NCBI GenBank assembly: GCA_030158185.1
Contig: JAOATP010000186.1
Coordinates: forward strand, 1 to 39,222
Direction: 5' to 3'
DNA length: 39,222 nucleotides
Source of the DNA: Propionicimonas sp.
GTDB lineage: Bacteria > Actinomycetota > Actinomycetes > Propionibacteriales > Propionibacteriaceae
In this document: positions 21,525 to 28,190 of the stretch, piece after piece
How positions within the stretch are numbered: the stretch's first letter is position 1
Layout: every line of letters begins with the position of its first letter
The notes under the pieces: model-generated
What the model was told of the DNA's origin: nothing
Seen by the model: only the letters and a program-made list of their open reading frames with translations
Database searches by the model: none
Program-made: the position numbers and the translations under genes

Positions 21525-22067
21525 TCAGAGGTTGCCGGTCGTGCCGTAGCGGCGGTAGATGCCGGGCTTGATGCTGGACAGCGTGTCGATGATGTCGCTG
21601 ATCGCGAGGTCGGGATGGCTGCGGGTGAGCTTGGACAGGTAGCGCATGCCGGCCTTCGCGAGATGCTCGCGGGTGGCCTCGATGCTCGTGCCCAGGACTT
21701 CAGCTGCCTCGGCCTCGTCCAGGTCGTCCCAGAAGCGCAGCTGCAGCAGCTGCCGGTCCCTTCCGCGCAGGTTGCTGAGGGCCTTGAGGAACTCGTCGGC
21801 GGGGTTGCGGGGAGTGGGGCCACCGAACACGGCGCCGACGCGCAGGCGATCCAGGATGCTGATCTTGTCGGAGTAGTTCCGGTAGGCGTCCTGCACCACC
21901 TTCTCGATGGCGCGGTACAGGTCGCGGAGGTCGTGGTCACGACGGCTGTCGAGCAGGGCGAAGGCGTCGGCCGCCATCTGGTGGGGGTCGGCGAGGCCCA
22001 TCGCACGCCACTCACAGGCTGTCACCACCAGGTCGTGGTATTTGGCTGCCAGTGCCTCGACGTTCAC
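21525..22067 (-). CDS. Small sigma-70-like protein divergent from the tad locus
   Basis: 180-residue protein with the arrangement of a minimal sigma factor. A helical N-terminal part (about 1-60, HDLVVTACEWRAMG then ADPHQMAADAFALLD) resembles region 2, and a clear region 4 helix-turn-helix lies at about 91-150 (EFLKALSNLRGRDRQLLQL, then AEAAEVLGTSIEATREHLAK). The region 2 match is weak, so it could be a sigma-derived regulator instead. The GTG at 22067 is chosen because minus-strand TAGGGT lies 8 bases upstream. It shares its 194-base upstream region with the SAF-domain gene, so it is a candidate regulator of the tad units (inference). Confidence 0.7.
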   Translation of the reverse strand: MNVEALAAKYHDLVVTACEWRAMGLADPHQMAADAFALLDSRRDHDLRDLYRAIEKVVQDAYRNYSDKISILDRLRVGAVFGGPTPRNPADEFLKALSNLRGRDRQLLQLRFWDDLDEAEAAEVLGTSIEATREHLAKAGMRYLSKLTRSHPDLAISDIIDTLSSIKPGIYRRYGTTGNL

Positions 22068-22074
22068 AGGAAAC

Positions 22075-22080
22075 ACCCTA
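22075..22080 (-). promoter_or_regulatory. -10 box TAGGGT before the sigma-like gene
   Basis: Minus-strand TAGGGT ends 8 bases before the GTG at 22067, consistent with leaderless or nearly leaderless transcription. Confidence 0.4.
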
Positions 22081-22130: not shown

Positions 22131-22196
22131 GTGTACGAGTTCTCCACAGATTCGCGGAGCGGTCTAGGAATAGGCCCGTCCGCCCGCCTACGATCC
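22131..22196 (+). promoter_or_regulatory. Shared tad promoter module, copy A (before the SAF gene)
   Basis: Ordered elements are GTGTACGA (22131), the DnaA-box-like TTCTCCACA (22140-22148, one mismatch), GGAAT (22167-22171), a 17-base spacer, and TACGATCC (22189-22196), 66 bases before the SAF start. The same elements in the same order precede cpaF, with the same 24-base step from TCCACA to GGAAT. GGAAT/TACGAT could be the -35/-10 of an alternative sigma factor (inference). Confidence 0.55.
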
Positions 22197-22261
22197 CACC
22201 ACCGCCGGACCGCTGCGCTCGACCCCAGGGCCCCAGCCATCCCGGCTCGAGGGGGTCGGTG

Positions 22262-22882
22262 ATGGCCGAGGAGCGGTTGGGTACGAGTCAGGTGAGGAAC
22301 CGGCGCAACCTGCGCTGGATGGCCGTCGGCGTGCTCGCCGTCTGCCTCGGCGGGCTGGGTGCTGCGCTCCTCTACGGGAACCTCAGCAATGCACACACCG
22401 TCCTCGTCGTGAAGCGGACGGTCTACCGCGACCAGGTGATCACCGCTGCCGACCTCGGGTCGACCTCTGCCGTGCCGGCGCTCGGCGTCGAAACCCTTTC
22501 GTCCGACCAGCTCGACGCCGTCGTCGGCCGGACCGCCCTCAGCGACCTGGTCGAGGGCAGCCTGCTGAGCCCGCGCTCGTTCGGCGAGCCCGCGGTGGAG
22601 GCGGGCAGCGTCCGCATCGGGCTGCGCCTTGCCGCGGGACGGTTGCCGTCGGCCGCGATGCCCCCGGGAACCGAGGTGCTGCTCGTCCCCGTGGGTCGCG
22701 ACGGCGCCGAGCCCCCGGCAGGGGCGAGCGTTGCCGCACGGATCGCGACGGCGGCAGCCGTCCTGCCCGACGGCGCCTCCATCGTCGACGTGAGTGTTCC
22801 CGCGGCGGAGGCGGAGCGGGTGGTGCGGCTGGCTTCGGCCGAACAGCTCGCGCTGGTGCGGCTTCCTGGCAGCCCGCGGTGA
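22262..22882 (+). CDS. SAF-domain protein, CpaB/RcpC-like tad component
   Basis: 206-residue envelope protein. A cytoplasmic head rich in Arg/Asn (1-17) is followed by a membrane helix (about 18-38), then an SAF domain (about 50-115: VVKRTVYRDQVITAADLGS, VVGRTALSDLVEGSLLSPRS) and a CpaB-like C-terminal part with GLRLAAGRLPSAAMPPGTEV. CpaB/RcpC proteins sit in the periplasm or wall and help assemble Flp pili. The start at 22262 follows GAGGGGGT. Its stop overlaps the start of the CpaE-like gene by 4 bases. The opening MAEE is shared with the small ORF before cpaF. Confidence 0.8.
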   Translation: MAEERLGTSQVRNRRNLRWMAVGVLAVCLGGLGAALLYGNLSNAHTVLVVKRTVYRDQVITAADLGSTSAVPALGVETLSSDQLDAVVGRTALSDLVEGSLLSPRSFGEPAVEAGSVRIGLRLAAGRLPSAAMPPGTEVLLVPVGRDGAEPPAGASVAARIATAAAVLPDGASIVDVSVPAAEAERVVRLASAEQLALVRLPGSPR

Positions 22883-23658
22883 GCATGCTGCTGCTGGCGA
22901 GCGCCGGCCACTCGCCGGGCGTCACGGGGCTCGGCGTGGCGCTGGCGCTCACCTGGAAGGAGCCGGTGCTGCTGGTGGACGCCGACCGGGAGCCGGACCA
23001 GACGGTGCTTGCCGGCCACCTGCAGGGCGTCGACCCGGGCGGACGGGGCCTCGGGGGGCTCCTGCAGGCGCACCGGGAGCACCGGTCGCTCGCCGAGTGC
23101 CTGCCCTCGATGACCATCCCCCTGCACGGTGAGGAGGGAAGGGACTTCCTGCCGGGGTTCTCGCATCCGGGCATGGTCGACCTGTTCGGGCCGGTGTGGC
23201 CGGAACTGGCGACCACCCTCGAGGCCGCGGGGCGCACGGTGCTCGTCGATGCGGGACGGATCACGCCAGCCGGCCTGCAGCCTGCCCTCGTTGCTGCGAG
23301 CAGCGGGGTGGCCGTGGTCACCGGCAGCCGGCTGGTCGACCTCGCAGCGCTGCGGCTGTACCTGCCGCTGGTGGTGGCGGCTGCGGGCGCAGAGCGGGTG
23401 GGGCTGGTGGTGGTTGGTCCGGGACGTCCGTACGGTTCCGGCGAGATCGGGCACCGCTTCGGTGTCGACGTGTGGGCGAAGCTCGCCTGGCAGCCGGCGG
23501 AGGCCGCCGTCTTCGCTGCGGGCGAGGCAGCGCCGCGGAGGCTGATGGCCAGCAACTACGTCGAGGACGTGCGGGCGCTCGGCGAGGTGCTCAGTGCCCG
23601 GGCGGCCGGCCGACGGCTGCAGCTCGGGGCGCCCCGGCCGTCCGCAGGGGGCGCCTAG
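22879..23658 (+). CDS. CpaE/MinD-like protein without a Walker A lysine
   Basis: 259-residue P-loop-fold protein related to the CpaE/TadZ localisation factors. The nucleotide loop that would be KGGxGKT reads ASAGHSPGVTGLG: it has no lysine, so ATP hydrolysis is unlikely. VLLVDADREPDQ (about 29-40) and VLVDAGRITPAG retain the fold landmarks, including the Walker A'-like Asp. In tad systems this family places the machinery in the cell. The GTG at 22879 overlaps the SAF stop (GTGA). Its stop codon lies within the -10 box of mutY. Confidence 0.7.
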   Translation: MSMLLLASAGHSPGVTGLGVALALTWKEPVLLVDADREPDQTVLAGHLQGVDPGGRGLGGLLQAHREHRSLAECLPSMTIPLHGEEGRDFLPGFSHPGMVDLFGPVWPELATTLEAAGRTVLVDAGRITPAGLQPALVAASSGVAVVTGSRLVDLAALRLYLPLVVAAAGAERVGLVVVGPGRPYGSGEIGHRFGVDVWAKLAWQPAEAAVFAAGEAAPRRLMASNYVEDVRALGEVLSARAAGRRLQLGAPRPSAGGA

Positions 23659-23661
23659 GCT
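23656..23661 (+). promoter_or_regulatory. -10 box TAGGCT before mutY
   Basis: TAGGCT ends 8 bases before the GTG at 23669 and contains the TAG stop of the preceding gene, suggesting mutY has its own leaderless promoter. Confidence 0.4.
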
Positions 23662-23668
23662 GAGCCGC

Positions 23669-24550
23669 GTGCCCGACCTCGCGACGCCGCTGATCGCCCC
23701 ACCGCTGATCAGCTGGTACGCCGAATTCGCCCGCGACCTGCCGTGGCGACGCCCGGACTTCGGCGCGTGGGGGGTGCTGGTGAGCGAGTTCATGCTGCAG
23801 CAGACCCCGGTGAACCGGGTGATCCCGCACCTGGAGGCGTGGCTGGAGCGCTGGCCGACGCCGGGCGCGCTTGCCGCCGAGCCGCCGGCGGAGGCCGTCC
23901 GGCAGTGGGCGAACCTCGGCTATCCGCGACGCGCGTTGCGGCTGCACCGGGCAGCTGTGGAGATCGGCCAGCGGCACAGCGGCGTCGTGCCCAGCGAGGT
24001 GGAGGACCTGCTCGCGTTGAGCGGCGTCGGGGAGTACACCGCGCGGGCCGTTGCGGTGTTCGCCAACGGGGAGCGCCACCCCGTCGTCGACATCAACACC
24101 CGCCGGGTGCTCGCGCGGGTAGTGACCGGACGCGCCCAGCCAGGGCCGCCCGCTCGCACCGACCTGACGCTGATGGAGTCGATCCTGCCGGCCGGGTTGG
24201 CGGACGCTGCGACCGTCAACGCAGCGACGATGGAGCTCGGCGCGATCGTCTGCACCGCCCGCACGCCTCGTTGCGGGGCGTGCCCGCTGGCCGAAGTGTG
24301 CGCCTGGCGGGCCGCCGGGTATCCCGACACCGGCGACGTCCGCCGCAAGCAGGCGGCGTACGAGGGCAGCGACCGCCAGGCCCGGGGAGCGGTGCTGAAG
24401 ATGTTGCGCGAGGCGGCGCCCCTGCCGGTGGCACTGGACGAGGTCATTCCGGGGTGGCCCGACGTGGTGCAGCGCGACCGTGCGATCGCTTCCCTTGTGG
24501 CCGACGGGCTGGCAGAGGTTCGCGGAGGGGTGCTCCAACTGCCGACGTGA
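23669..24550 (+). CDS. mutY: A/G-specific adenine DNA glycosylase
   Basis: 293-residue base-excision repair enzyme that removes adenine paired with 8-oxoguanine. It has the catalytic Glu in SEFMLQQTPVNRV, the helix-hairpin-helix LLALSGVGEYTARAVAVFAN, the catalytic Asp in VVDINTRRVL, and a 4Fe-4S cluster motif C-x6-C-x2-C-x5-C (CTARTPRCGACPLAEVC, about residues 195-211). The C-terminal NUDIX-like domain of E. coli MutY is missing, as in many actinobacterial forms. It is wedged between the two halves of the tad locus; the link is probably positional only. Confidence 0.93.
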   Translation: MPDLATPLIAPPLISWYAEFARDLPWRRPDFGAWGVLVSEFMLQQTPVNRVIPHLEAWLERWPTPGALAAEPPAEAVRQWANLGYPRRALRLHRAAVEIGQRHSGVVPSEVEDLLALSGVGEYTARAVAVFANGERHPVVDINTRRVLARVVTGRAQPGPPARTDLTLMESILPAGLADAATVNAATMELGAIVCTARTPRCGACPLAEVCAWRAAGYPDTGDVRRKQAAYEGSDRQARGAVLKMLREAAPLPVALDEVIPGWPDVVQRDRAIASLVADGLAEVRGGVLQLPT

Positions 24551-24578
24551 CGGTTGGGGGACCCGGGAGGCGCCGGGT

Positions 24579-24654
24579 GGGAAGAATCTGCACCTCTCGG
24601 GGCCTCTGCGCCGCAACCCGCCTTCTCAGCGCGATCCAGGTGCAGATTTCTCCC
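24579..24654. repeat. 17-bp imperfect inverted repeat, likely mutY terminator
   Basis: Arms 24579-24595 (GGGAAGAATCTGCACCT) and 24638-24654 pair at 15 of 17 positions, with a perfect inner 11 bp (AATCTGCACCT/AGGTGCAGATT). The 42-base loop is GC-rich. It begins 29 bases after the mutY stop. A terminator or a remnant of a small mobile repeat are both possible. Confidence 0.6.
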
Positions 24655-24685
24655 TCGGGGCGACAGCGACCGGAGCGGCGGCCGC

Positions 24686-24694
24686 TTGTCCACA
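24686..24694 (+). promoter_or_regulatory. DnaA box TTGTCCACA
   Basis: Exact match to the actinobacterial DnaA-box consensus, 29 bases upstream of a second box in the same orientation. Confidence 0.55.
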
Positions 24695-24695
24695 G

Positions 24696-24770
24696 GTGTA
24701 CGAACCTGCCGGGGTTATCCACAACTTGTCTCCGGCCTCTGGGAATCGTGCCGGGGCTCGCTTACGATCC
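24696..24770 (+). promoter_or_regulatory. Shared tad promoter module, copy B (before cpaF)
   Basis: GTGTACGA (24696-24703), DnaA-type TTATCCACA (24715-24723), GGAAT (24742-24746), a 16-base spacer, and TACGATCC (24763-24770), 62 bases before a TGATGGCGGAGGAG start region. Copy A before the SAF gene has the same order and nearly the same spacing. Confidence 0.55.
24715..24723 (+). promoter_or_regulatory. DnaA box TTATCCACA
   Basis: Exact match to the classical E. coli DnaA box, between GTGTACGA and GGAAT of promoter copy B. Confidence 0.55.
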
Positions 24771-24832
24771 TCGGATTCGCTAGCTGCGTGCCCACCCCGG
24801 ACGCCGCAGCTCCCGGAGTGAGGGGATCGCTG

Positions 24833-24871
24833 ATGGCGGAGGAGTTCCCGGATCACGGCTGGCGGGCCTGA
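24833..24871 (+). CDS. 12-residue leader ORF before cpaF
   Basis: ATG to TGA encodes MAEEFPDHGWRA, with GAGGGG as ribosome-binding site. Its TGA overlaps the cpaF ATG (TGATG), and cpaF itself has no good ribosome-binding site, so translation of the short ORF could deliver ribosomes to cpaF. The first codons and leader match those of the SAF gene (MAEE). Alternatively it is the true cpaF N-terminus separated by a one-base frameshift. Confidence 0.4.
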   Translation: MAEEFPDHGWRA

Positions 24872-26262
24872 TGCGACGCCTCGCCGAGGTCGACCTGCTC
24901 GCCGGTGATGTGGGCCTGGAGACGACGCACCGCAGGGAGCGGTTGATCGAGGCCCGAGCCGACGACGCGCTGGTCGACTGGCCACTTGTCGTGGTGCTGC
25001 GGCGTCGCGCGTCCGAGCGCATCACAGCGGCGATCGCGAAGAAGCCGGGACACCTGGCCGACGTGGACCGTCTCCTGCTCGGGCGATCGGTGATCATCGC
25101 CGTGGTCCGCGAGCATGTGGAGGCGCTGCGCACCAACGGTGAGGCGTTGTGGTCGATGGTCGTTGAGGAGGCGTACTCCCGGGCCGTCGAGAATGCGATC
25201 TTCGGGTTCGGCAGGCTGCAGCCCCTCTTCGAGATCGCCGAGGCGGAGAACATCGAGATCCACGGCTGCGACTCGGTGGTGGTGCAGTACGGGGACGGGC
25301 GGCGCGAGGAGCGTCCGCCGGTGGCCGACTCCGACGCCGAGCTGGTGGAGGCGATCCGCTTCCTCGGCGAGACCGTCACCCCCGCCCGTCCGTTCGACGA
25401 CACCCACCCGATGATGACGCTCGCCCTCGGCGACAGGTTCCGGTTGCACGCGATCGGTTTCGGGCTGAGCTACCGGCCGTCGATCACCATCCGGCAGCAC
25501 ACGCTCACCGATGTGACCCTGCGGCAGCTGTCCGACGGCGGGATGATGCCGCCCGACGTTGCGAGGTTCCTGCACGCGGCAGTGCTGGCCCGAAAGTCGA
25601 TGGTCATCTCTGGCGACCAGGGGGCCGGCAAGACCACGTTGCTCCGCGCGCTGATCGCAGCGATTCCGGAGAACGAGCGCTTCGGCACCCTGGAAACCGA
25701 CTACGAGTTGCTCACCCACCTGCAACCGCGACGCCGGAACATGCTCGCGCTGCAGGCGCGGGTGGGCATGGGCGAGGTTCAGGACGGGCGCCGCCTCGGC
25801 GAGTTCACGGTTGCCGACCTGATTCCGGAGGCGCTGCGGCAGAACCTGTCCCGCCTGATCGTCGGCGAGGTCCGCGGCGGTGAAGCCGGGGCCATGTTCG
25901 AAGCCATGACGGCCGGCGCGGGCACCCTTTCGACGACGCACTCCCACTCGGCCGCGTCAACGATGGACCGGCTCGCCTCACGCGTCGCACAGGGCGGCGT
26001 ACTGACGGTCGAGGAGGCCTACCGCCAGATCGCCCACCACATCCACCTGCTCATCCATGTAAGGCTGGTGGACGACACCTGGCGTGGTGGCCTCCGCACA
26101 AGGGCCGTCGCAGAGATCCGGCAGCTCACCGGCGGTCTCGAATCGGGTCGCCCCGTGACCCACCTGTGCTTCCGGTCAGGGACGGGCGGCCCCGACCAGT
26201 TCACTCCGGACGCCGGCCTGCTGGACGAGCTGGCGCCTTTCGCCTCGGCCTGGGACGCCTGA
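24871..26262 (+). CDS. cpaF: Tad pilus/secretion ATPase CpaF (TadA)
   Basis: 463-residue cytoplasmic hexameric ATPase that powers pilin assembly. The N-terminal domain begins around VDWPLVVVLRRRASERI (about 35-51), with a sensing region at about 110-150 (FGFGRLQPLFEIAEAENIEI). The ATPase core has Walker A SGDQGAGKTTLLRAL (about 247-261), an Asp box near GTLETDYE, Walker B LIVGEVRGGEA (about 329-339) and a His box TLSTTHSHSA. Length and layout match actinobacterial CpaF relatives. The start at 24871 is coupled to the 12-codon ORF; the gene overlaps tadB by TGATG. It leads a seven-gene run to 31796. Confidence 0.92.
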   Translation: MRRLAEVDLLAGDVGLETTHRRERLIEARADDALVDWPLVVVLRRRASERITAAIAKKPGHLADVDRLLLGRSVIIAVVREHVEALRTNGEALWSMVVEEAYSRAVENAIFGFGRLQPLFEIAEAENIEIHGCDSVVVQYGDGRREERPPVADSDAELVEAIRFLGETVTPARPFDDTHPMMTLALGDRFRLHAIGFGLSYRPSITIRQHTLTDVTLRQLSDGGMMPPDVARFLHAAVLARKSMVISGDQGAGKTTLLRALIAAIPENERFGTLETDYELLTHLQPRRRNMLALQARVGMGEVQDGRRLGEFTVADLIPEALRQNLSRLIVGEVRGGEAGAMFEAMTAGAGTLSTTHSHSAASTMDRLASRVAQGGVLTVEEAYRQIAHHIHLLIHVRLVDDTWRGGLRTRAVAEIRQLTGGLESGRPVTHLCFRSGTGGPDQFTPDAGLLDELAPFASAWDA

Positions 26263-27122
26263 TGGCCACCCTCCTCGCCGGCCTGTGCGGCGTCCTGATC
26301 GCAGGAGGGCTCGTCCTGTTCGCCGCGGGTCTGCGCCGCCGTCCGGCGGAAGTCACCGGGTTGTCCACAGGTCTGTGGAAAAAGGTTGTGGATTCAAGCA
26401 TTGCCCGCACGGTGCGGCGCCGTTGGTGGCAGCTCGCACTTGCCCTCGTCGCGGGCATCGTTGCTGCGGCTGTGGTCGGCTGGCCATTGCTCGCCGTCCT
26501 CGTGCCGGTGGTCGCCTACGGGCTGCCGGTGGTGCTCTCCGCGCCGTCCAACCGTGACCTCGCCGTCCTCGAAGCACTCGACCGCTGGGTACGTTCCCTT
26601 GCCTCCCTGCTGCCCACAGGGCGCTCGATCAGTGACGCGATCAGGGTGTCCGTCGCGCAGGCGCCGGCGCTCCTCGCGCCTCAGTTGAGGCTCCTCACCG
26701 CCCGGCTGGACGACCGCTGGACCACGGCACAGGCCCTGCTCAGCCTCGCAGACGAGCTCGACAGCCCGGACGCGGACGCGGTGCTGGCGGCACTCTCGCT
26801 GGCGGCCGACCGTGGCGGGACGGGCGCGACGGCGACCCTTGCAGCTCTCGCGGACAACATCCAGGACCGGCTGCGCGCTCTTCGCGAGATCGAGACCGAG
26901 CGGGCCAAGCCGCGCATCGTCGTCCGCCAGGTCACCCTGATCACGCTCGTCGTGCTCGGCCTTGCCCTGCTCTTCGGAGGCTCGTTCTTCGCGCCCTACG
27001 GCTCCCCGCTCGGCCAACTCCTGCTGGCTGCCCTTGTGTTCGCCTACCTCGGCGCCCTCCTGTTCCTGCGCCGCCTGACCCTGCCCCGGCCGCGGCAGCG
27101 CATCCTGCGGCGGCTCGCATGA
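26262..27122 (+). CDS. tadB: Tad inner-membrane platform protein TadB
   Basis: 286-residue type II secretion F-domain membrane protein. N-terminal helices lie at about 5-22 and 58-92, then a cytoplasmic T2SSF domain (about 100-225; LEALDRWVRSLASLLPTGRS near 105), then two C-terminal helices (about 228-275). Together with TadC it forms the membrane platform driven by CpaF. The ATG at 26262 overlaps the cpaF stop. The stretch 26361-26380 inside the coding region contains another exact DnaA box and a short TCCACAG/CTGTGGA hairpin. Confidence 0.87.
   Translation: MATLLAGLCGVLIAGGLVLFAAGLRRRPAEVTGLSTGLWKKVVDSSIARTVRRRWWQLALALVAGIVAAAVVGWPLLAVLVPVVAYGLPVVLSAPSNRDLAVLEALDRWVRSLASLLPTGRSISDAIRVSVAQAPALLAPQLRLLTARLDDRWTTAQALLSLADELDSPDADAVLAALSLAADRGGTGATATLAALADNIQDRLRALREIETERAKPRIVVRQVTLITLVVLGLALLFGGSFFAPYGSPLGQLLLAALVFAYLGALLFLRRLTLPRPRQRILRRLA
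26361..26379. promoter_or_regulatory. DnaA box TTGTCCACA with adjoining palindrome inside tadB
   Basis: TTGTCCACA (26361-26369) overlaps the palindrome TCCACAG/CTGTGGA (26364-26379). It is the third exact DnaA-type box in 1.7 kb. In coding sequence the function is doubtful. Confidence 0.35.
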
Positions 27123-27997
27123 ACGCGCAGCTGCTGGCGATCCTTGCCGGTGGCCTTGTCGGCTTCGGGCTCTGGGCACTCGTCGGCGTCCTCGTACCCA
27201 CAGCCCCGCGGCTCGCCGACGCTCTCGACCTGCTGGACGGCCGGCTTGCCTCCGCCCCGGGGACGCGCGGCACCGGTGTCGACCGCATCGGAGGCTGGGT
27301 CCGTTGGCGTCTGCGGCGACCCGTCACCGCAGACACCCTGCGACGCCTCCGGATGGCCGGACGTTCGGTCGACCGGCACTACGCCTACAAGGTGCTGTGC
27401 GCGTTCGCCGGCCTGCTCGTCCCGCCGCTGCTCGGGCTCGGCCTTGTCCTCTCCGGCATCACCGGCTTCGAGGTGCCGGCAGCGATCGGGCTGGTCGCCG
27501 CCCTCGTTGGCTTCTTCCTTCCCGACATCGTCCTGCGTCGCTCGGAACGCGAGGTGAACGCCGACGCGACGGAAGCCCTCCTCACCTATTTCGACCTCGT
27601 CACCCTTGAACGCCTGGCGAATCAGTCCGGCAGCCAGGCGTTGCGCTCGGCGGCAGCAGTCAGCGACGTCACCGTCTTCGCCACCATCAGGGACGCCCTC
27701 GAGCGGGCCCGGCTCGAGCAACGCGCGCCGTACACCGAGCTCCACCGGTTGGGGGTGGAGCTCGAGCTCCCCGCGCTCGTGGACGCCGCCGACGTGATGT
27801 CCCTCGACGAAGCCGGCGCGGCACTGTCGGACGCCTTGCGGGCCCGTGTCCGCGAGCTTCGTGACGCCCATCTCACCGAGGCCAGGATCGCCGCGGCCTC
27901 CGTGTCGGAGCGGATGGCCCTCTTCATGGTGATCCCGAGCCTCGTGTTCGGCTTGTTCTTCCTCGTCCCGCCGATCCTTCGCCTTGTCGGCGGCTGA
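27119..27997 (+). CDS. tadC: Tad inner-membrane platform protein TadC
   Basis: 292-residue partner of TadB with the T2SSF fold. An N-terminal helix (about 4-24) is followed by two helices (about 93-140) ending in FFLPDIVLRRSEREV, the cytoplasmic domain (about 145-255, with LLTYFDLVTLERLANQSGS) and a final helix (about 262-290, VIPSLVFGLFFLVPPILRL). The ATG overlaps the tadB stop (ATGA). The 16-base gap to the next gene is the only untranslated gap in the operon and carries a fresh ribosome-binding site. Confidence 0.87.
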   Translation: MNAQLLAILAGGLVGFGLWALVGVLVPTAPRLADALDLLDGRLASAPGTRGTGVDRIGGWVRWRLRRPVTADTLRRLRMAGRSVDRHYAYKVLCAFAGLLVPPLLGLGLVLSGITGFEVPAAIGLVAALVGFFLPDIVLRRSEREVNADATEALLTYFDLVTLERLANQSGSQALRSAAAVSDVTVFATIRDALERARLEQRAPYTELHRLGVELELPALVDAADVMSLDEAGAALSDALRARVRELRDAHLTEARIAAASVSERMALFMVIPSLVFGLFFLVPPILRLVGG

Positions 27998-28013
27998 CCT
28001 TGTTAGGAGAGCG

Positions 28014-28190
28014 ATGAGAATCCTGCACCTGCTGCTCGGGGCGCTGGTGGCCCCACCACCGCCGCGGGACCAGCGCGGGCTGTCGCAGTCGACGGAGAAC
28101 GCGATCCTCCTCGCCGGGGCCGTCGCGGTGGCGCTGATCGTCATCAGCGCCGTCACCATCTACGTGACAGCGAAGCTGCCGCGGCCGTGA
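28014..28190 (+). CDS. Flp-like prepilin
   Basis: 58-residue candidate major pilin. A short basic/Pro-rich leader (MRILHLLLGALVAPPPPRDQRG) would be cut after Gly22 by a prepilin peptidase, leaving LSQSTENAILLAGAVAVALI and a hydrophobic helix to the C-terminus. The Glu falls at +6, near the +5 usual in type IV-like pilins. The start at 28014 follows TTAGGAGAG; an upstream in-frame GTG overlaps tadC. The leader is unusually hydrophobic for a Flp pilin. It is followed by two TadE-like genes sharing the QRG cleavage motif. Confidence 0.72.
   Translation: MRILHLLLGALVAPPPPRDQRGLSQSTENAILLAGAVAVALIVISAVTIYVTAKLPRP

Follow-up and report, generated by a model that had tools for sequence, protein, structure and literature searches.

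The tad (Flp pilus) locus of a Propionicimonas sp., read here in a window of 39,222 nucleotides (the whole stretch of contig JAOATP010000186.1 that was analysed), is divided in two: a SAF-domain (CpaB-like) gene and a gene in the position of TadZ form an upstream unit, and the locus resumes with cpaF and tadB beyond a mutY-like gene. How could a divided pilus locus remain under joint control, and which protein would exert that control? The original prediction had proposed that both units carry a duplicated regulatory module read by one regulator. The copies are homologous, a copy stands at cpaF in five genomes, and the SAF promoter is kept in 19 of 19, which strongly supports the duplicated module; the proposal as a whole is borne out in part. 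It appears close to certain that the regions upstream of SAF and cpaF are paralogous promoters that arose by homologous promoter duplication, and that one regulator drives both units is a fair inference. The explanation that we favour, with slightly better than even confidence, is that a DnaA-box-dependent tad promoter was duplicated as the operon split.

The promoter regions of SAF and cpaF

The two regions contain the following elements, all on the forward strand:
22131-22138 (SAF copy) and 24696-24703 (cpaF copy), forward: GTGTACGA element, register not fixed
22140-22148, forward: DnaA-box-like TTCTCCACA of the SAF promoter, 49 bases before TACGAT
24715-24723, forward: DnaA-box-like TTATCCACA of the cpaF promoter, 48 bases before TACGAT
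24686-24694, forward: additional DnaA-box-like TTGTCCACA, ahead of the promoter copy at cpaF
22167-22171 (SAF) and 24742-24746 (cpaF), forward: GGAAT, -35-like
22189-22194 (SAF) and 24763-24768 (cpaF), forward: TACGAT, -10-like (TAnnnT)
22249-22254 (SAF) and 24820-24825 (leader open reading frame (ORF), cpaF side), forward: GAGGGG, likely ribosome-binding site

All of the elements that had been named upstream of SAF and cpaF are present where the original prediction placed them. TCCACA begins at 22143 on the SAF side and at 24718 on the cpaF side, TACGATCC at 22189 and 24763, and ATGGC at 22262 and 24833. The spacings given for them are also exact, with 24 bases from TCCACA to GGAAT in both copies, 22 (SAF) and 21 (cpaF) from GGAAT to TACGAT, and 73 and 70 from TACGAT to ATG. 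GTGTACGA, which had been listed first in the order of elements, occurs in both copies but shifts by 10 bases between them, lying 12 bases before TCCACA at SAF and 22 at cpaF; the further TTGTCCACA (24686) is found upstream of the cpaF copy only.

A global alignment of the SAF and cpaF upstream regions, begun 3 bases ahead of the box and ended 9 bases past the ATG, has 90 identical columns out of 130; it scored 32.5, and 500 dinucleotide shuffles gave a mean of -13.3 (standard deviation 5.1, maximum 2.5). The pattern GGAATN{15,18}TACGAT occurs twice only in the assembly (2.84 Mb in 236 contigs, 80.4% complete), both times here, and a reversed control pattern not at all. GC-rich upstream regions might resemble each other by chance, as single short elements are common and GGAAT/TACGAT with two mismatches would be expected 1.6 times in the window. 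However, an alignment score about 9 standard deviations above the shuffles, together with conservation in 19 orthologues, makes the probability of such a coincidence close to nil.

Conservation of the box and the -10 element

The homology of the two regions, like the conservation, fixed spacing, gene orders and apparent DNA-level constraint in tadB described below, was established by comparing sequences. Of 30 genomes sampled in the genus, 19 have a SAF match of at least 50% identity (in two pieces in G005 and G007), and these 19 SAF promoters together with five cpaF copies (G000, G012, G016, G025 and G027) make up 24 genus promoters. In every one of the 24 a TAnnnT lies 47-49 bases downstream of the start of a box with TCCACA at its end; tested as the 9-mer TT(A/G/C)TCCACA, the box is TTNTCCACA in 23 and ATATCCACA in the remaining one. 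All 19 SAF promoters have both box and spacing (18 with TTNTCCACA, G028 with ATATCCACA), and all five cpaF copies, which are readable in full, have TTATCCACA at 48-49 bases from TAnnnT. TACGAT itself is found in 12 of the 24 promoters, the others having a different TAnnnT, and GGAAT is at its place in seven. As in sigma-70-type promoters, the -10 TAnnnT occupies a constant place; no -35 element is common to the 24 genus promoters. The module was expected to be conserved in orthologous loci around a core of GGAAT-N16-17-TACGAT. What the 19 SAF promoters keep is a DnaA-type box and TAnnnT; with GGAAT in only 7 of 24 promoters, GGAAT-TACGAT was dropped as the conserved core, and the constant pair takes its place.

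We propose that both regions are copies of the promoter of one type of tad locus, present in Propionicimonas and Propionibacteriaceae, whose working part would consist of a DnaA-type box, TTNTCCACA, and a -10 element, TAnnnT, 47-49 bases beyond the start of the box. With the -10 read as usual, the box centre would lie at about -56, and a leader with a G-rich ribosome-binding site at its end would follow the -10. We regard it as likely that the promoter is functional and that its box is activator-like.

When 60 genomes were searched with a sequence model based on 19 of the 24 promoters, 21 matches had an expectation value (E) of at most 1.3e-12. All 21 are at SAF or cpaF promoters, and 19 of them are the model's own sequences. 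No third promoter copy reached this threshold in any of the 60 genomes, the filters being stricter and losing weak matches, of which some exist; one is a partial match in G005 (C333, 2435-2529; E 2.4e-5).

Beyond the genus, named genomes were scanned with a CpaF alignment and the best 80 of 117 relatives retained; they include Micropruina, Propioniciclava, Tessaracoccus, Microlunatus, Cutibacterium and Propionicimonas, and the 80 loci overlap in part with the genomes of the other samples, several being shared. A forward TTNTCCACA was present in 46 of 73 readable SAF upstream regions (letter shuffles: mean 0.19, maximum 3), and a TAnnnT at 47-49 bases from the box in 37 of 73, a spacing met by chance at 1.2% of positions. 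Among 21 further loci of the family, nine have a forward TTNTCCACA and four the spacing; in L064, which is among the four, it lies far from SAF. 'Family' in these counts is a grouping (f1) that joins genera such as Propionicimonas, Auraticoccus and Raineyella; the NCBI taxonomy places Propionicimonas under Nocardioidaceae and the other two under Propionibacteriaceae. In a class-wide sample some CpaF match was found in 142 of 148 genomes, the best match outside the family being 47% identical.

A gene that could bear on this promoter diverges from it:
21525-22076, reverse: divergent gene matching sigma-70 region 4 only (Pfam PF08281/PF04545), like the C-terminal part of extracytoplasmic function (ECF) sigma factors; NCBIfam ECF matches under the cut-off

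Its product, or an ECF sigma factor, might read GGAAT-N16/17-TACGAT at both promoters. The gene adjoins the SAF promoter, GGAAT resembles ECF -35 elements, and the pattern is confined to these two places in the assembly. However, besides being present in only seven promoters, GGAAT is absent in the SAF promoters of G012, G016, G018 and G027, all of which have the divergent gene, and is present in those of G004, G007, G008 and G026, for which tblastn against the SAF-side stretch gave no match to such a gene. The protein also lacks a match to region 2. We consider a sigma factor of this kind highly improbable as the explanation, and the local sigma-like gene was set aside as a common regulator because its presence does not track the motif.

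The shared part could also act as RNA, with its C-run pairing with the G-rich ribosome-binding site and so regulating translation of both units. Both runs are conserved in the leader, and single leaders fold at about -20 to -38 kcal/mol, a range given with no shuffle control. The consensus fold is weak (-2.16 kcal/mol, 9 pairs), yet 7 of the 9 pairs show a change on both sides. The 24 single predictions share no evident fold, Rfam returned three matches that were all under the gathering score with E above 1, and the box and its spacing would be left without explanation. An RNA-based mechanism is improbable in our judgement.

DnaA-type boxes and the array inside tadB

According to PMC4285127, the best DnaA box in both M. 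tuberculosis and S. coelicolor is TT(G/C)TCCACA, and TTATCCACA, TTGTCCACA and TTCTCCACA fit the published actinobacterial boxes as they appear there. The 9-mer is the same, and such boxes also stand beside dnaA in the genomes studied here. We compared the dnaA loci of eight genomes, the window's own and seven that were picked, most of them assembled in few contigs. TTNTCCACA is present before the likely dnaA start in all eight and, in seven of the eight, after dnaA, where oriC is expected (this stretch being assumed to be oriC). The dnaA gene and the tad locus are 34-146 kb apart in the six genomes in which they share a contig (G008, G015, G026, G046, G048 and G050) and on different contigs in G000 and G028. 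The assembly contains 47 copies of TTNTCCACA (reversed control 16), of which five fall within 4.3 kb at the tad locus where 0.07 would be expected, for a stretch chosen after the fact. In G048, 7 of the 64 copies of TTNTCCACA in the genome lie within 5 kb of the tad locus (C1, 2171389-2176346), and three are clustered about 1.8 kb after cpaF.

A further group of sites lies within a coding sequence:
26361-26392, no strand assigned: intragenic array TTGTCCACA-N4-TGTGGAAAA, then TGTGGA, in tadB; core TCCACA-N4-TGTGGA

The core TCCACA-N4-TGTGGA is found about 100-140 bases after cpaF, inside tadB, often with further cores. Of 79 named loci (the 80 less one that has no downstream sequence), 36 have at least two cores in the first 300 bases beyond cpaF, a number reached in 2.4% of 2359 control windows. 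The amino acids encoded by the array are ST.[LM]W, and all 33 such motifs are written TCC ACA, with a threonine codon, ACA, that is rare in this context (3.5% of threonine codons in cpaF). As all 33 motifs use this codon, in a count that treats related loci as independent, the DNA itself within tadB appears to be under constraint. The array would provide an extra DnaA binding site. In a datA-like titration locus a cluster of boxes lowers free DnaA and initiation; a cluster of DnaA-type boxes is present at the tad locus, which, in the wider reading given below, may in turn titrate DnaA.

A dedicated transcription factor, probably a dimer with a half-site similar to a DnaA box, could instead read the same duplicated promoter. 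In favour of such a factor are the regular inverted repeat TCCACA-N4-TGTGGA in tadB, an additional inverted site, TGTGGATAA, upstream in the SAF promoters of G009 and G010, and the frequent extension of the box to TCCACAGAT. Most genus promoters, however, have a single half-site, the other tadB cores differ in spacing and orientation, and an identical 12-mer, TTGTCCACAGAT, precedes dnaA in G000 and G015; the sigma-like gene, the sole regulator-like neighbour examined, is not linked to SAF throughout the genus. A dedicated factor is a possibility that we take seriously while doubting it.

DnaA is our best single guess for the box-binding protein. It would most likely act at the box as a position-dependent transcription factor on both units; we infer promoter activity, DnaA binding, the direction of the effect and the role of the leader from the pattern of sites. 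DnaA is a transcription factor in E. coli, B. subtilis and Caulobacter, where boxes near promoters control genes that are not concerned with replication; unlike in those cases, the putative target here is an actinobacterial Tad pilus locus. A DnaA-box cluster outside oriC, as at the tad locus, has reportedly been found in Streptomyces (D78) by Smulczyk-Krawczyszyn in 2006. The putative sites described here differ from known actinobacterial DnaA boxes in their fixed distance within pilus promoters and in the palindromic array inside tadB. No DnaA boxes at tad genes of Actinobacteria were reported in the titles and abstract openings of the top-listed matches in the open-licence literature, and the word DnaA occurs 0 times in the main text of PMC8467076.

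The split of the tad operon

The genes on which the split bears are the following:
22262-22882, forward: SAF-domain gene (CpaB-like), starts MAEE; PF08666, with a weak match to TIGR03177 (CpaB) under the cut-off
22879-23658, forward: TadZ, second gene of the upstream tad unit, named by place; no Pfam or NCBIfam match
23669-24550, forward: mutY-like gene (A/G-specific adenine glycosylase), located between TadZ and cpaF; TIGR01084, E 1.2e-54, under the equivalog cut-off
24833-24871, forward: 12-codon leader ORF MAEEFPDHGWRA*, starts MAEE like SAF, out of frame with cpaF, its stop overlapping the cpaF start
24871-26262, forward: cpaF/tadA ATPase gene, true start ATG 24871; PF00437, with TIGR03819 under the cut-off
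26262-27122, forward: tadB, with the ATG overlapping the cpaF stop taken as its start; PF00482

Together with a tadC-positioned gene and TadE genes, these make up the content of the locus, in which CpaB-like, CpaF, TadB/C and TadE genes occur together as in a Tad/Flp pilus locus (TadZ and TadC by position only). The tad/flp loci of Actinobacteria have the gene order CpaB-like/TadZ/CpaF/TadB/TadC/TadE. The order is the same here, divided into two units that each have a promoter copy.

In close relatives the SAF, TadZ and CpaF genes are contiguous, with ends touching or overlapping (for example in G001, G004 and G008), and there is one promoter of this kind, upstream of SAF. All five genomes in which cpaF is detached from TadZ and has a readable upstream region have a promoter copy before cpaF; a sixth copy, in G018, is cut by a contig end, and its link to cpaF is presumed. 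A mutY orthologue directly follows TadZ in G000, G016, G018 and G027, and cpaF directly follows mutY in G000, G012 and G027. In joined relatives mutY does not lie between TadZ and cpaF, and in the nine other members of the genus with an orthologue it lies at a great distance or on a separate contig. The split had been described as lying around mutY, a view too narrow for the sister genomes, in which other genes occupy the TadZ-cpaF junction. In G012 a 5'-truncated mutY directly precedes cpaF, and the interval from TadZ to mutY, about 4.4 kb, is occupied by other genes. In G016 mutY is followed by a sugar-transport-like cluster and cpaF is on another contig; in G018 it is followed by a two-component-like gene pair and then the truncated promoter copy, cpaF being a fragment on another contig (the names in both cases come from reading ORFs, with no family searches). 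The promoter copy is also present before cpaF in G025, a genome 72% complete in which no SAF orthologue was found.

The original prediction took ATG 24833 as the start of cpaF; it opens the 12-codon leader ORF, and the cpaF ORF starts at ATG 24871. Leaders of 28 (G027) and 20 (G025) codons, both starting MAEV, likewise stop on the cpaF start, and in G012 and G016, which have no leader ORF, cpaF directly follows the ribosome-binding site. The leader ORFs fit a promoter copy that carried the first SAF codons along, and leader ORF and cpaF may be translationally coupled.

We suggest that TadZ and cpaF came apart in one clade of the genus, with mutY, and in some genomes more genes, now lying between them, and that cpaF and the genes downstream came under a copy of the SAF promoter. 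Some copies would have taken the first SAF codons with them, and these would survive as a short leader ORF whose stop falls on the cpaF start. In a tree of SAF and TadZ the five split genomes with SAF form one clade (support 91/96), with G001 outside.

Several results weigh against a DnaA-box-dependent promoter duplicated at a single split. The forward TTNTCCACA is missing upstream of SAF in 27 of the 73 named loci, the spacing in 17 of the 21 further family loci and the tadB array in 43 of the 79 named loci, so that the link between box and tad is not universal. No TTNTCCACA was seen within 1.4 kb after dnaA in G015, and a dimeric regulator would fit the palindromic tadB core as well. In the CpaF tree the joined G001 stands beside the split G000 (91/94), and the promoter tree lacks resolution and does not unite the cpaF copies. 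The conflict between the CpaF and the SAF and TadZ trees leaves a single clean split unsettled; G001, of which the contig is 5.7 kb long and cpaF partial, may have kept the old arrangement or have been rejoined.

A wider, tentative reading, which we would not yet back, is that the tad locus, which is close to the replication origin in those genomes that show its place, is both controlled by DnaA and bound by it, at the promoters and the tadB array, that pilus expression is thereby tied to the initiation of replication, and that selection kept this control through promoter duplication where the operon broke. The locus offers a record, at the level of sequence, of an operon split without loss of joint control by means of a copied promoter. 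The findings suggest DnaA, or a protein that shares its site, as a Tad pilus regulator in a group to which Cutibacterium, Micropruina and Propionicimonas belong. Three defined sites are concerned, one of them kept in coding sequence against codon bias.

Some minor observations concern the neighbourhood of the locus. The divergent sigma-region-4 gene is a neighbour of SAF in G001 as well as in the five split genomes that have SAF. Between TadZ and mutY in G012 (L071, 3000-7300), one ORF resembles a transposase remnant. A small ORF at 27984-28190, between the tadC-positioned and TadE genes, has one hydrophobic stretch and is a possible Flp pilin.

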